Source: Planctomycetota bacterium (lineage in GTDB: Bacteria; Planctomycetota; UBA1135; UBA2386). From it: a stretch of 49,434 nucleotides of DNA. Shown piece by piece: positions 7,532 through 37,612 of the stretch (position 1 is the stretch's first letter; the number at the start of each line of letters is the position of its first letter). The translations under genes were made by a program, and so were the position numbers. The notes below the pieces were generated by a model. The model saw only the letters and a program-made list of their open reading frames with translations. It searched no databases and was not told where the DNA came from. The stretch spans positions 1 through 49,434 of the forward strand of contig JAGQRB010000280.1 in NCBI GenBank assembly GCA_020425925.1. Direction: 5' to 3'.

Positions 7532-10275
<2,744 letters not shown>

Positions 10276-24701: not shown

Positions 24702-24709
<8 letters not shown>

Positions 24710-25481
24710 AACGACCCTCCAGGTAGTCGACGGTGCGCGAGTCCTCGGCGCTGCGGAACAGCCGCTCGGTCTCACCGGTCTCGACACAGGCGCCACCGAG
24801 GAAGAACGCGGTGCGATCGGCAAGGCGGCGCGCCTGCTGCACGAGGTTGGTCACCAGGATGATCGTCATCTCGCTCTTGAGATCCTTGAGCACCTCCTCG
24901 ATGCGCATCGTCGTCACCGGGTCGACGGCGATCGAGAACTCGTCGAGCAGCAGCAGCTGCGGGTCCTGCGACAGCGCGCGCGCGATCGTCAGGCGTTGCT
25001 GCTGACCGCCGCTGAGCAGTGAACCCAGGCTCTTCAGTCGATCCTTGACCTCGTCCCACAGCGCCGCGCGCCGCAGGCAGCGCTCGACGACCTCGTCGAG
25101 CACGGCGCGACGGCGCTCGCCGGCGAGCCGCGGGGCGAGCGCGACGTTGTCGTAGATCGTCAGCGGCAGACCGACCGGCAGCGGGAACACGACGCCGATC
25201 ATGCGGCGCAGCGCGTAGAGGTTGCGCACCGCGCCGATGTCGCGACCCGCGAACGTGATCGAGCCCTCGACGCGCATGCCGTGCACGAACTCGTCCATGC
25301 GGTTCAGCGACCGCAGGAACGACGACTTGCCGGCGTTGGCGGGACCGATGATGCCGAAGATCTCGTTGCGGCGAACCTCGAGGTCGACACCCTGCAGCGC
25401 GACCTTGTCGCCGTAGCGGATCGTCAGGCCGCGCACCTCGAGCAACGTCTCGGCCGCGAGTTCCGGCGCCGGCGCGCTCAC
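24702..25481 (-). CDS. pstB: Phosphate ABC transporter ATPase with degenerate Q- and H-loops (PstB2)
   Basis: A 259-residue PstB paralogue. Walker A is GPANAGKSS and the signature LSGGQQQR (S157) is canonical. The Q-loop glutamine is replaced by proline (GVVFPLPVG, P100), and the H-loop histidine by asparagine (LVTNLVQQA, N212). Walker B reads LLLLDEFSIAVDP, keeping the Asp-Glu pair but changing the following DEPxSALDP consensus. GTG 25481 overlaps the pstA stop (GTGA). The defects are complementary to those of PstB1, so this is unlikely to be simple gene decay. Confidence 0.92.
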
Positions 25482-26362
25482 CACTTCTTCCTCCCGCGCA
25501 GCCGCATCCGGAAGTAGATCGCGACCGCGTTCATCGACAGCACGACCAGGATCAGCAGCAGCGCGACCGTGAACGGCACGTGCCGCGGCACGTTGGTCAC
25601 CTGGGTCGAGACGTTGAACAGGTGCAGCGACAGCGCCATCGTCTTGTCGAAGGCGGTGCTCGGGAACATCTGCCGGAAGAACACCGCGCCGGTGAACATG
25701 ATCGGCGCGGTCTCGCCGACCGCGCGACAGACGACGAGGATCAGGCCGGTCAGGATGCCGCTGCCCGAGTTCGGCAGCACGATGCGCCAGATCGTCTGCC
25801 AGCGCGTCGCGCCCATGTTCCAGCAGGCGTCGCGGAACGAATGCGGCACCGCCTGCAGCGACTCGCGGGTCGAGACGATCACGACCGGCAGCGTCATGAC
25901 CGCGAGCGTCGCGCTGGCGGCGAGGATCGACTTGCCGAAGCCGGCGAAGTAGACGAACGCACCGACGCCGAACAGCGCGTGCACGATCGACGGCACGCCG
26001 GCGAGGTTGACGATCGCGACGTTGATCGTGCGGGTCAGCCAGTTGTCGCGCGCGTACTCGCTGAGGTAGATCGCCGCGGCGACGCCGAGCGGCAGCGCGA
26101 ACAGCAGCGCGAACGCGGTCAGCCAGACGGTGCCGACCAGCGCGGTCGCGATGCCGCCGGCGGCGCCGTTGTCGCGCGGCTTGGTGGTCAGGAACTCCCA
26201 GGTCAGACCCTGCGCCCCCTCGAACACCAGCACGCCGAGGATCAGCACGGCCGGGATCAGCAGCAGCAGCGTGATCGCGAGGAAGCCGAGCTTCAGCAGG
26301 CGCTGCGTGCCGAGCGCCTTCTGCTCGTGCGGGGTCGCGGAGAACGTCGTCAGCGAGCTCAC
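25478..26362 (-). CDS. pstA: Phosphate ABC transporter permease PstA
   Basis: A 294-residue inner-membrane permease with six predicted TM helices and the EAA-type loop (SFRDACWNMGATRWQTIWRIVLPNS). VSIVHA-like PSIVHALFG and RAVGETAPIMFTG are typical of PstA. GTG 26362 has AGGAG 6 nt upstream and overlaps the pstC stop (GTGA), so translation is coupled. Confidence 0.95.
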   Translation of the reverse strand: MSSLTTFSATPHEQKALGTQRLLKLGFLAITLLLLIPAVLILGVLVFEGAQGLTWEFLTTKPRDNGAAGGIATALVGTVWLTAFALLFALPLGVAAAIYLSEYARDNWLTRTINVAIVNLAGVPSIVHALFGVGAFVYFAGFGKSILAASATLAVMTLPVVIVSTRESLQAVPHSFRDACWNMGATRWQTIWRIVLPNSGSGILTGLILVVCRAVGETAPIMFTGAVFFRQMFPSTAFDKTMALSLHLFNVSTQVTNVPRHVPFTVALLLILVVLSMNAVAIYFRMRLRGRKKW

Positions 26363-27354
26363 GCCGCACTCCTGCGGCCGCGCACGATCCGGTCCGCCAG
26401 CAGGTTGATGAAGAACGTGATCAGGAACAGCACCAGGCCGAGCACGAACAGCACCTGGTAGTGATCGCTGCCGACCGCGGCCTCGCCGAGTTCGGCGGCG
26501 ATCGTCGCGGTCAGCGTCGCGGCCGAGTCGAAGACGCTCTCGGGGATCATCAGCCGGTGACCGCTCGCCATCAGCACCGCGATGGTCTCGCCGAACGCGC
26601 GGCCGACGCCGAGCAGCACCGCGGCCGACAGACCGGGCCGCGCGTGCGGCAGCACCACCCGCCAGATCACCTGCCAGCGGGTCGCGCCGAGCGACTCGGC
26701 CGCCTCGCGGTAGCTCTCCGGCACGGCCTTGAGCGCGTCCTCGGCGATCGTCGCGATGATCGGCGCCGCCATCAGCCCGAGGATGATGCCGGCGTTGAGC
26801 ACGTTGAGGCCGACCTGCACGCCGAAGACGTCCTGGATGACGCCCTTCATCACGTGCAGGCCGATGACGCCCCAGACCACCGACGGGATCGCGGCGAGCA
26901 GCTCGATGCCGATCTTGAGCCACTCGCGCTGCTTGCCGCGCGCGAACTCGCCGATGTAGATCGCGGCGCCGAACGACAGCGGCACCGCGACCAGCATCGC
27001 GACCACGGTGATCCACGCGGTGCCGGCGATCAGCGGCAACGCCCCGTACTCGGGCGGCTCGATCGTCGGCTCCCAGCGGTGGCCGAACAGCAGCTCGGAC
27101 AGTGACAGCCGGTGCACCAGGAAGTCGAAGCCCTGGCTGCCGATGAACACGAAGATCGCGGCGATGAACAGGATCGCCGAGACGCCGCCGACCAGCACGA
27201 TCGCGCGCGCCAGCAGATCGAACTTCCAGGCGCGGTCGCGGCGGTCGAGTGCCGCCGCCCAGTCGGTTGCGGCGCCCGCGGCCCGATCGCCCGGCACGAG
27301 CGTCGGACGGGGCACGGGCAGTTCTGGCTTCGGTTGCATGCGCGGCGCGGTCAT
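26359..27354 (-). CDS. pstC: Phosphate ABC transporter permease PstC
   Basis: A 331-residue inner-membrane permease. An N-terminal cytoplasmic region of about 45 residues is Pro/Arg-rich, then come six TM helices with IPSVVWGVIGLHV, the EAA loop (SYREAAESLGATRWQVIWRVVLP) and GRAFGETIAVLMASGH. ATG 27354 lies 3 nt after the stop of the PhoU-fusion gene. Confidence 0.95.
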   Translation of the reverse strand: MTAPRMQPKPELPVPRPTLVPGDRAAGAATDWAAALDRRDRAWKFDLLARAIVLVGGVSAILFIAAIFVFIGSQGFDFLVHRLSLSELLFGHRWEPTIEPPEYGALPLIAGTAWITVVAMLVAVPLSFGAAIYIGEFARGKQREWLKIGIELLAAIPSVVWGVIGLHVMKGVIQDVFGVQVGLNVLNAGIILGLMAAPIIATIAEDALKAVPESYREAAESLGATRWQVIWRVVLPHARPGLSAAVLLGVGRAFGETIAVLMASGHRLMIPESVFDSAATLTATIAAELGEAAVGSDHYQVLFVLGLVLFLITFFINLLADRIVRGRRSAA

Positions 27355-27357
27355 GGG

Positions 27358-28503
27358 TCAGCTGGGCTGCTCGCCGTACAACCGCTCCATGAGGTCGCGG
27401 ATGCGGGGGGTGAGCTCGCGGTAGACGGCCTCGGGGCGAAGATCGGGGTCGAGACCCCAGACGATCGCAGTCGTGTGGAACGGCAGCTTCGGCAGATGCT
27501 CGCGCGTCGTCGGGTCGAGGCCGACGACGACGTCGTACTGGTCGAGCTGCTCGCGCAGCGTGTCGAGTTCGGTCGGCCACGCACCGCGCAGATCGAGCCC
27601 GACGGTCTCGGCGAACGCGATGTAGGCGGGATCGACGTCCTCGGCGTGCTGCCAGCCGGCGCTGTCGTAGCCGCCGCCGTCGGGGAACGTCTTCTTGGCG
27701 TGGTGTTCGGCGAGCTGGCTCGGACCGGTGTTGCTGGCGTCGACGAACAGCAGGTTGAACTGTCTCTCGCTCTTCACCTTGCCGGTGACGACGAACATCG
27801 TCTCGTCGCAGACGTTCTTGGCCTGATGGATCACGCGCTGGAGCCGATTGAACGTCGCGATCAACGCGAACAGGTCCAGCACCGGGCGCGAGCCGGCCTC
27901 GCCCTCGCGAACCAGGTCGTCGAACACGCGGTCGAAGTGGCGCGCGAACTGCTGCGTGGCGGCGATCGTCGCCTGCGCCTGTCGGGCATCGCGCCGATCG
28001 AACGCCTGCAGCGCGTCGGCGAGCGAACGCCGCGCCTGCTCGGACATCACCTCCAGATCGCGGGCCACGGTCGGCGGCGGCTCGACGGTCAGCTGGCAGG
28101 CGGTGCGGGCGATCGTCGCGGCGTAGTCGCCGATGCGCTCGAGTCCGATGCTCAGACGCAGCACCGAAGACACGTAGCGCAGATGACCGGCGCTCGGCAG
28201 GTGCCTGGCGACGAACGCATGGCACAGTCGATCGAGCTCACGCGTCTGCCGGTTGATCGTGCAGTCGCCGAGCACCGTGTTCGCCGCCCGATCCTTGTCG
28301 AGCTCGAGCACCGCCCGCACCGCGTCGTCGAGGGCCTCGACGATCTGCCGGCCGACGATGTCGATCAGTCGACCGATCCAGTCGAGATCCTGCTGCAGAC
28401 GCTCTTCGTAGTGCGGGGTCACGTCGGGGACGGGCTCGGGTCGAGCGAACGACGAGATGGAAGCCGCCGGCACGGTCGGATTCGAGCGCGAAGCGACCGT
28501 CAT
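27358..28503 (-). CDS. PhoU domain fused to a catalytically dead LMW phosphatase/ArsC-like domain
   Basis: A 381-residue protein. Residues about 30-240 are the two three-helix bundles of PhoU (RQIVEALDDAVRAVLELDKD, LRLSIGLERIGDYAATIART, RLQRVIHQAKNVCDET), the negative regulator of Pst signalling. Residues about 248-375 have the fold pattern of low-molecular-weight phosphatase/arsenate reductase (NLLFVDASNTGPSQLAEHH). In active enzymes this P-loop is CX5R; here Cys is D255 and Arg is P261, so catalysis should be impossible. The domain may have become an oxyanion- or partner-binding module. It lies 19 nt after pstS and 3 nt before pstC, inside the operon. Confidence 0.88.
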   Translation of the reverse strand: MTVASRSNPTVPAASISSFARPEPVPDVTPHYEERLQQDLDWIGRLIDIVGRQIVEALDDAVRAVLELDKDRAANTVLGDCTINRQTRELDRLCHAFVARHLPSAGHLRYVSSVLRLSIGLERIGDYAATIARTACQLTVEPPPTVARDLEVMSEQARRSLADALQAFDRRDARQAQATIAATQQFARHFDRVFDDLVREGEAGSRPVLDLFALIATFNRLQRVIHQAKNVCDETMFVVTGKVKSERQFNLLFVDASNTGPSQLAEHHAKKTFPDGGGYDSAGWQHAEDVDPAYIAFAETVGLDLRGAWPTELDTLREQLDQYDVVVGLDPTTREHLPKLPFHTTAIVWGLDPDLRPEAVYRELTPRIRDLMERLYGEQPS

Positions 28504-28522: not shown

Positions 28523-29392
28523 TCAGAGTTTGCGCAGCGGGATGTATCCCTTCTTCAACAGCACCTGCTGGCCGTCGTCGCTCGCGATCCAGTCGAGGTA
28601 GGCCGCGATGTCGCCCTCGGGCTCGCCGATCGTGTACATGAACAGCGGCCGCGCGATCGGATAGGTCTTGTCGAGCACGGTGTCGATGCTCGGCACCACC
28701 GGCGGCGATTCCGCGGAGGCCGACACCGGCACGATCTTGACCTGATCCGTCGCGTAGGCGATGCCGCTGTAGCCGATCGCGCTCTTCGTCTTGGCGCAGA
28801 AGTCGACCACGTCCTTGCTGCCGTTCAGGTTGTTGCAGCGCATCTTGAAGCGCCCGTTCTCGCCGAGCACGTGCTCGCGGAAGCACTCGTAGGTGCCGCT
28901 GTTGTTCTGCCGCGAGGCCAGCACGACCTCGTTGGCCTCCGGGCTGCCGAAGTCGACGCCGAGGTCCTTCCAGGAGTCGATCTTGCCGCCGTCGCCGAAC
29001 AGCTCCTGGAGCTGCGCGATGGTGATCGACTCGAGCGGGTTCTCCTTGTGCACGAAGATCGCGATGCCGTCGTAGCCGACGACGTGCTGGACCGGGTCGT
29101 GTCCGTGGTTCTTCGCGGCCTCGATCTCCTTCTCCTTGAGCGGCCGACTCGAATTCGCGATGTCGACGTCGCCGTCGATCAGGTTCTTGATGCCGACACC
29201 CGAGCCGCCGCCCGACACCGAGATCGCGATCTCGGGATGCAGCTCGTGGTAGGCCTCGGCGAGCGAACCGGCGACCTCGAGCAGGGTGTCGGAGCCGAGG
29301 TTCTGGATCTCCTTGTGGCCCGAACCAAAGCAGCCGGTCAGGAAGGGGAACGCCAGCGCCAGGCTGAGCGACGGAAGCGAGAGTTTCGTCAC
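28523..29392 (-). CDS. pstS: Phosphate-binding lipoprotein PstS
   Basis: A 289-residue periplasmic substrate-binding protein. The signal peptide ends in lipobox FLTGC (C21). Mature sequence shows the PstS hallmarks: IQNLGSDTLLEV, SGGGSGVGIKNLIDGDVDIANSSR, YDGIAIFVHKENP, NNSGTYECF and SAIGYSGIAYA. Start is GTG 29392, chosen because it gives a compact signal peptide and there is no other start nearby; no clear Shine-Dalgarno. First gene of the pst operon. Confidence 0.94.
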   Translation of the reverse strand: MTKLSLPSLSLALAFPFLTGCFGSGHKEIQNLGSDTLLEVAGSLAEAYHELHPEIAISVSGGGSGVGIKNLIDGDVDIANSSRPLKEKEIEAAKNHGHDPVQHVVGYDGIAIFVHKENPLESITIAQLQELFGDGGKIDSWKDLGVDFGSPEANEVVLASRQNNSGTYECFREHVLGENGRFKMRCNNLNGSKDVVDFCAKTKSAIGYSGIAYATDQVKIVPVSASAESPPVVPSIDTVLDKTYPIARPLFMYTIGEPEGDIAAYLDWIASDDGQQVLLKKGYIPLRKL

Positions 29393-35938: not shown

Positions 35939-37612
35939 ATGGCGGACGAGCTCGAGCAGCTGCGGAACGAGGTCGCGGCCCTGCGCGCCGCGAACGAGCA
36001 GCTCCGCGCCGAGGCCCGATCGGTGGCGAGCGCGAACGTCAACGCCGCGCAGCAGATCATGGAGATGAGCCTCGCGCGCCAGCGTGACCTCGAGGCCCAC
36101 AACGAGCGCATCCAGGCCGCGCTCGCTTTCGCGGAGCAGGCGTCGGCCGAGAAGTCGATGTTCCTCGCCAACATCAGTCACGAGCTGCGCACGCCGCTGA
36201 ACGGCATCATCGGCATGGCGACGATCGTGCTCGACGAGGAGGAAGACGCCGAACGTCGCGAGCGACTTCGCCTGCTGCTGAGCTCGGGCCAGATGCTGCT
36301 GCAGATCGTCAACGACGTGCTCGACTTCTCGAAGATCGAGGTCGACAGGCTGGAGCTGGTCGACACCGTGTTCGACGTCTGGCAGACGGCGGAGAGCCTG
36401 GTCGGCCTGCTCAGCGCCGGCAACCGCCGGCACGAGGTCGACATCCGGCTCGAGATCGACCCGCGCGTGCCCCGCGCCGTGCGCGGCGACGAGCTGCGGC
36501 TGCGGCAGGTGCTCACCAACCTCGCGAGCAACGCCGCGAAGTTCACCGAGACCGGCGAGGTCGTCGTGCGGCTCGCCACCGCAGGCCAACGCATCCGCTT
36601 CGAGATCACCGACACCGGCTGCGGCATCGCTCCCGAGGTCCTGGCCCGCCTGTTCGAGCCGTTCACGCAGGGCGACGCCTCGGCGACGCGCCGCAAGGGC
36701 GGCACCGGCCTCGGCCTCGCGATCTCGCGGCGGCTCGTGCGCCTGATGGGCGGCGACATCCGGGTCGATACCGCGCCGGGCCGCGGCAGCACGTTCTGGT
36801 TCGACGTCGAGCTCGAGCTGGTCGACGACGCGCGCGATGCCGCACCCATCGCGAAGGCGCCGTTCCGGGGCGCGATCGTCGTGACCGGGGACGAACGACT
36901 GCAGCGCACCGTCGCGCAACACCTCGGCGCGCTCGGTGTCCCGACCGTCGACGCCGCCGACCGTGCCGGCGGCGATGCGAACGGAGCGGATCCGCTGCTG
37001 TGGTTCATCGACACCGAGTCGCCCGCCGCGGTCGCGGCCAGCCCGAGCGCGTCCGACCGCTGCATCCTGCTGCTCGGTTCCGAGGGCCACGACGCCGGCC
37101 AGTGGCGCGCGCGTTTCCCGCGCGCCCGGATGCTCTACCGGCCACTGCTCCCGACCGCGCTGGCGAAGCAGTGCCTCGATGGCACCGTCCCCGGGACGAC
37201 CACCTCCGCCGCGACCACGGCGGGAGCGCAGCCGCGACCCGGCATGCGCGTGCTCGTGGTCGAGGACAACCCGATCAACACCCGGGTCGCGGTCGCCTAC
37301 CTGACGAAGCTCGGCTGCAAGGTCGACGAGGCCTGCAACGGCGTCGAGGCGGTCGCGGCGGTCGCGCAGCAGCGCTACGACGTCGTGTTCATGGACTGCC
37401 AGATGCCGGTCATGGACGGCTACGAGGCGACGGTTCGCATCCGCGAATCCGAGCAGGGCGGCAACCGGCGGTCCTACATCGTGGCGCTGACCGCGCACGC
37501 GCTCGCCCAGGACCGCGAACGCTGCCTCGCGGCCGGCATGGACGACTATCTCTGCAAGCCGGTCTCGCGCACCGCACTCGCGAAGCTGCTCGGCAGCCGC
37601 GCCGACACCTGA
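35939..37612 (+). CDS. Soluble hybrid histidine kinase
   Basis: A 557-residue cytoplasmic kinase with no TM. Residues 1-70 are a coiled coil (LEQLRNEVAALRAANEQLRAE). HisKA has ISHELRTPLNG with H81, then ATPase motifs TNLASNAAKFT, DTGCGIAP and GTGLGLAIS. A degenerate receiver-like segment (about 305-405) precedes a full receiver with acceptor Asp486 (VVFMDCQMP) and K-containing YLCKPVS. Domain order parallels the membrane kinase at 7528-10275. It starts 6 nt after the DsrE-like gene, so sulfur-relay proteins are its likely input. No separate output regulator is encoded. Confidence 0.92.
   Translation: MADELEQLRNEVAALRAANEQLRAEARSVASANVNAAQQIMEMSLARQRDLEAHNERIQAALAFAEQASAEKSMFLANISHELRTPLNGIIGMATIVLDEEEDAERRERLRLLLSSGQMLLQIVNDVLDFSKIEVDRLELVDTVFDVWQTAESLVGLLSAGNRRHEVDIRLEIDPRVPRAVRGDELRLRQVLTNLASNAAKFTETGEVVVRLATAGQRIRFEITDTGCGIAPEVLARLFEPFTQGDASATRRKGGTGLGLAISRRLVRLMGGDIRVDTAPGRGSTFWFDVELELVDDARDAAPIAKAPFRGAIVVTGDERLQRTVAQHLGALGVPTVDAADRAGGDANGADPLLWFIDTESPAAVAASPSASDRCILLLGSEGHDAGQWRARFPRARMLYRPLLPTALAKQCLDGTVPGTTTSAATTAGAQPRPGMRVLVVEDNPINTRVAVAYLTKLGCKVDEACNGVEAVAAVAQQRYDVVFMDCQMPVMDGYEATVRIRESEQGGNRRSYIVALTAHALAQDRERCLAAGMDDYLCKPVSRTALAKLLGSRADT

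Follow-up and report, generated by a model that had tools for sequence, protein, structure and literature searches.

A PhoU protein with an inactivated arsenate reductase-like domain in a planctomycete pst operon and its association with an asymmetric PstB1/PstB2 pair

The window analysed here, a stretch of 49,434 nt from a Planctomycetota bacterium (assembly GCA_020425925.1, contig JAGQRB010000280.1), harbors a pst operon on its minus strand with the gene order pstS, phoU*, pstC, pstA, pstB1, pstB2. PstS, PstC and PstA lie above their profile cut-offs and, together with two PstB-like ATPases, make up the gene set of a Pst importer in one operon. From phoU* through pstB1, neighbouring genes overlap or stand a few bases apart. 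The features are:

28523..29392, minus strand: pstS, phosphate-binding protein (TIGR02136, 223.6 bits, above cut-off; GTG start assumed)
27358..28503, minus strand: phoU*, PhoU with a C-terminal pseudo-ArsC/LMWPTP domain, 381 aa (profile matches, AlphaFold2, Foldseek)
27777..28413, minus strand: PhoU part of phoU*, residues ~31-242, two PhoU repeats (profile and structure match)
27361..27759, minus strand: pseudo-ArsC domain of phoU*, residues ~249-381, without cysteine (profile, sequence, fold)
27718..27741, minus strand: dead P-loop D255-A-S-N-T-G-P261-S262 (sequence and alignment)
26359..27354, minus strand: pstC permease (TIGR02138, 276.4 bits, above cut-off)
25478..26362, minus strand: pstA permease (TIGR00974, 261 bits, above cut-off; GTG start, 4-nt overlap with pstC)
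24702..25481, minus strand: pstB1 (LSGGQ and DE present; Q-loop Gln replaced by Pro, H-switch His by Asn)
23870..~24685, minus strand: pstB2 (LSLEEQ in the place of LSGGQ; Walker A, Q-loop, DE and H-switch as in canonical PstB; start approximate)

The open reading frame of phoU* starts at 28503 and stops at 27358; translation of the plus strand over these positions yields a shadow frame, which was rejected as a coding reading. The product matches PF01895 (PhoU) at residues 50-134 and with a second repeat (69 bits, gathering score 23.5), and scores 113.7 bits with TIGR02135, the NCBIfam PhoU equivalog, which is below the cut-off of 130.25. For residues 252-337, the LMWPc profile PF01451 gives 20.8 bits, slightly below its cut-off of 23.2; the same profile reaches E <= 0.001 in 57 of 63 aligned fusion members (best 1.7e-14). 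NCBIfam ArsC models match the protein at E = 3.5e-6, and among solved structures it is arsenate reductases that come closest in sequence to the C-terminal part. An AlphaFold2 model of the 381-aa protein, built on an alignment of 63 relatives, has a pLDDT of 91.3. With Foldseek, its PhoU half was matched to P. aeruginosa PhoU (4q25, TM 0.95 on target) and its C-terminal half to pI258 ArsC (1jf8, TM 0.82 on target). Profiles, model and structure search agree with the original prediction, made for this gene, of a PhoU fused to a dead ArsC-like domain.

The P-loop of the window protein reads F-V-D-A-S-N-T-G-P-S-Q-L-A-E, compared with F-x-C-x-x-N-S-C-R-S-Q-M-A-E in ArsC. D255 and P261 occupy the Cys and Arg positions of the CX5R motif, so that the replacement of CX5R by DX5P, as well as N258, G260 and S262, had been read correctly in the original prediction. 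Residues 246-381 contain no cysteine, and therefore phosphatase and ArsC thiol chemistry are both impossible in this domain, including any role of resolving cysteines. The PhoU half keeps the first of the two PhoU motifs intact (LERIGDYA) and carries QRVIHQA instead of the second ERxxD.

Relatives of the fusion were gathered from the window's order, its phylum, public genomes and Verrucomicrobiota, which resulted in 135 aligned dead fusions from Planctomycetota, Verrucomicrobiota, Acidobacteriota, Myxococcota and others. Record titles of dead fusions also name Lentisphaerae, KSB1, Calditrichaceae, Eisenbacteria, Desulfobacterales and one alphaproteobacterial MAG; most of the records are MAGs, so that individual phylum assignments could be erroneous. 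In the PhoU tree, the halves belonging to dead fusions all group together as one clade (branch support 100/99), which splits into a planctomycete type including the window, with the P-loop Arg mostly lost, and a Verrucomicrobiota/Myxococcota/Acidobacteriota type in which it is often kept. Of the two E-R-x-x-D metal-site motifs of PhoU, the first is kept in all 135 fusions; in the second, Glu remains in 132 and 40 have His for Asp, with the window sequence reading QRVIHQ at this place. One planctomycete MAG contig (L050 / L101) carries a Verrucomicrobiota-type operon, through either horizontal transfer or misbinning. A second fusion copy, 62% identical and with Asp in its P-loop, was found in the same genome (L005:6958-8022, G000:C259). 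It lies outside any pst operon, beside ORFs that by eye resemble PriA and a Ser/Thr kinase, and has its closest relatives in other genera (73% to L011), which would fit either an ancient paralogue or contamination of the bin, estimated at 6.4%.

Across the 135 dead fusions, the column of the catalytic Cys holds Asp in 127, Gly in 6, Glu in one and Ser in one, and never Cys. The Asn and Ser of the P-loop are kept in 112 and 117 members, respectively, and Trp349 is invariant (135/135). For the C-terminal domain, most pairs give a dN/dS of 0.03-0.3 and all stay below 0.65, near the values of the PhoU half, which shows purifying selection on the domain. These data bear on the view that the window gene is a lone fusion in decay, derived from a live PhoU-ArsC whose homologues would mostly keep CX5R. 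Such live fusions do exist, and a single origin of all fusions has an AU p of 0.094. The absence of Cys from 135 of 135 dead fusions and the purifying selection nevertheless led us to reject isolated decay, which we regard as hardly credible.

The P-loop Arg behaves differently from the Asp. It is kept in 51 of the 135 members and is absent throughout the window's family; the Verrucomicrobiota-type clade shows the whole N-[SA]-C-R-S loop, Arg included, in 47 of 78, and most other members, among them the window family, have Ala, Pro, Leu, Val or Trp in this column. This pattern bears on two readings which give the loop a new function. Periplasmic phosphate-binding proteins contain an Asp that accepts a hydrogen bond from HPO4(2-). 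By analogy, the exchange of Cys for Asp could make the P-loop selective for Pi, hydrogen-bonded by HPO4(2-), so that the domain reports cytosolic Pi to PhoU; the P-loop Asn and Ser kept in most members, the Arg-keeping loop of the 47 and the location within a pst operon are in line with this. However, Arg is replaced in most of the remaining members while Asp is fixed, the dianion would be expected to be repelled by a carboxylate at this place, and external Pi is already sensed by PstS, which makes a phosphate sensor quite unlikely. A phosphate-selective Asp is possible in the Arg-keeping sister clade. Alternatively, Asp255 might act as phospho-acceptor and form an aspartyl phosphate in a DX5R loop, given that Asp occupies the nucleophile position and about a third of the members have the Arg. 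But Asp persists where Arg has been lost, in the window as well, and 6 of the 135 have Gly instead; such new chemistry appears very improbable.

A third reading takes the domain as an appendage for structure or oligomerisation, which makes PhoU more stable or fixes the number of its copies at the membrane and has no specific regulatory role. It would explain why a conserved catalytic set is absent and why the positions from Asp255 to Ser262 vary freely, Asn258 excepted. Against this, the conservation of Asp255, Asn258, Ser262 and Trp349 is too specific for filler and the dN/dS is near that of the PhoU half, and we consider an appendage rather unlikely. What remains of the proposed conversion of the domain to binding or signalling is its non-catalytic part, which is well supported by the single clade, the conserved Asp, the kept Asn and Ser and the purifying selection. 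The other part, an intracellular oxyanion sensor, is unlikely for the window protein, with Arg gone from the whole family and a carboxylate at the anion hole.

Live fusions with an intact CX5R are rare; the three found (L204/L229, L205/L230 and L233/L234) lie outside the dead clade, on separate branches of the PhoU tree, although a single origin of live and dead fusions was not rejected. All three are encoded by the last gene of a pst operon with one canonical PstB, and in all three operons a gene for an ArsR-ArsC fusion is found upstream. The arsenic-linked operons at L229, L230 and L234 comprise the genes for the ArsR-ArsC fusion, pstS, pstC, pstA, a canonical pstB and the live PhoU-ArsC. 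Linkage of pst and arsenic genes is already known (PMC3834237). Because the live fusions sit in arsenic-linked pst operons, they hint, short of proof, at an origin of the dead domain from an arsenate reductase that had joined a phosphate/arsenate transporter. The dead fusions share with them the domain order and the pst operon, and differ in the lost CX5R, the PstB pair, the missing upstream ArsR-ArsC and the position of the gene: at all loci read, the dead fusion gene stands before pstC and never after pstB, in a fixed order.

Both ATPases of the window fall below the cut-off of the canonical PstB model TIGR00972 (286.9 and 312.8 bits, cut-off 343.2). PstB1 has the Walker A sequence GPANAGKSS, a Q-loop without Gln (VFPLPVG), an LSGGQ signature, DEFSIAVD with the D-loop FSIAVD, and VTN without the switch His. 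PstB2 has GPSGCGKST, FQRPNP, DEPCSALD and VTH, and a signature of the form L[SQ]LE[EQ]Q replaces LSGGQ (LSLEEQ in the window, LQLEQQ in the other clade). These complementary defects were found at every dead-fusion locus with both pstB genes readable, and PstB1 and PstB2 each form one clade (support 100/100 each). The two proteins are predicted to form a heterodimer, in which one composite ATP site would be canonical and the other degenerate; the canonical site, if they pair, would consist of Walker A, Q-loop and H-switch of PstB2 and the LSGGQ of PstB1.

For a genome-wide view, the PstB2 signature was scored by DNA pattern. Among 392 genomes of Planctomycetota, it was present in 23 of 24 with the fusion and in 7 of 368 without (Fisher p about 5e-30, for rows that share descent and are not independent); in the exception, G002, the fusion operon lies at a contig end. 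Within Verrucomicrobiota, it was found in four of five dead-fusion genomes and in 1 of 236 others (Fisher p 2e-7, likewise for genomes which share descent and are not independent events). The fifth genome has a broken locus (L203, G563:C41), where the reading frame of the fusion passes straight into the C-terminal end of PstB2, apparently through a deletion or an assembly join across the operon. In the seven planctomycete genomes that have the signature but no fusion (loci L181-L187), the pair is accompanied by an ordinary stand-alone PhoU encoded at the operon end, and G679 of Verrucomicrobiota likewise combines the pair with a stand-alone PhoU. The fusion is nested within the lineage of the PstB pair: it implies the pair, and the converse is false. 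The idea that an asymmetric PstB pair requires the fusion was rejected on account of the loci with stand-alone PhoU. Pair and dead fusion each arose about once, and the association therefore represents few evolutionary events despite the many genomes.

We give a little better than an even chance to the reading that the product of phoU* is a PhoU dedicated to one distinct, asymmetric type of Pst importer, PstS-PstC-PstA-PstB1/PstB2, with the pseudo-ArsC domain as a non-catalytic docking or regulatory module. The ArsC-derived domain would have lost its chemistry through the fixed change of Cys to Asp, and the window's lineage would have gone on to lose the P-loop Arg and every Cys. Most likely, the domain aids recognition by PhoU of the PstB1/PstB2 motor with its two presumably unequal ATP sites, one consensus and one degenerate, and its docking would couple the transport state to PhoU signalling. 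Docking or regulation is preferred over oxyanion sensing because the family tolerates loss of the Arg but not of the carboxylate, and an anion site would show the reverse. PhoU-PstB contact has been established in E. coli, according to work cited in PMC12096839. As for the platform for PstB contact that had been proposed as another option, the strict association with the asymmetric pair favours it; contact of the pseudo-ArsC domain with PstB1/PstB2, as well as an effect on transport or signalling, would be predicted on this reading. A bolder version sees an undescribed importer lineage spanning several phyla, with an asymmetric PstB1/PstB2 motor whose pump activity would be set directly by the dead ArsC loop of PhoU, acting as a Pi-selective cytosolic sensor or as a latch on the degenerate ATP site; this we hold to be unlikely.

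PhoU, ArsC, PstB tandems and degenerate ABC sites are each already known. The fusion resembles PhoU (PF01895/TIGR02135), the negative regulator of Pst and the Pho regulon, in its two repeats, the invariant first ERxGD, the TM of 0.95 and the pst operon. It differs in the extra pseudo-ArsC domain, a second motif of ERxxDQA or ERVIHQA, its own clade, a score under the TIGR02135 cut-off and a gene placed before pstC rather than last. With thioredoxin/glutaredoxin-type ArsC and LMW PTP (PF01451) it has in common the fold and the Asn and Ser of the P-loop, and in the sister clade even the loop N-S-C-R-S-Q-M-A-E. In contrast to these enzymes, the nucleophilic Cys is Asp, Arg is lost here, the window domain has no Cys at all and the domain stands behind PhoU. 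Pseudophosphatases such as HD-PTP, IA-2 and the D2 domains of receptor PTPs (PMC2661844) likewise combine a phosphatase fold with conserved catalytic loss, whereas here a bacterial ArsC-type domain is carried on PhoU. A role in regulating Pst and the Pho two-component system would be in keeping with the operon context and with a PhoB-like regulator encoded elsewhere in the genome. Receiver-domain-like stretches that match PhoB models (9442-10263 and 37244-37579) lie outside the pst operon of the window, and two such matches stand in tandem within one 985-aa frame.

Adjacent pstB genes of non-equivalent function in a pst-phoU operon are known from Firmicutes, namely PstB1/PstB2 of E. faecalis (PMC12096839, according to which tandem pstB paralogues were previously unstudied in any microbe). 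Both of those PstBs were treated as likely ATPases with the known motifs, whereas complementary losses were found here in every locus. A consensus and a degenerate site, as predicted here, also characterise the heterodimeric ABC transporters TM287/288 and BmrCD and the type II importers RbsA/NupO (PMC11466899), in contrast to the present type I phosphate importer with a PhoU partner. The literature searched, with subscription papers outside its scope, contained neither a PhoU-LMWPc or PhoU-arsenate-reductase fusion nor a report of an asymmetric or degenerate PstB pair, and a published description of live PhoU-ArsC fusions was not found in it; a PhoU phylogeny of 2026 (PMC13170248) does not use the words 'fused', 'fusion' or 'arsenate'. 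Annotation pipelines may misname both PstBs, which score below the PstB cut-off, and the fusion.

The fusion and its strict association with the PstB pair point to an undescribed kind of control of phosphate uptake. They bear on the way in which PhoU senses what state the Pst transporter is in, in a system whose partner has been marked by evolution. Each ATP site of the PstB pair can be mutated separately, which would tell which site and which PstB face PhoU reads. Furthermore, the family provides a clear example from bacteria of a conserved pseudo-arsenate-reductase, for which the live, arsenic-linked counterparts provide a natural comparison.
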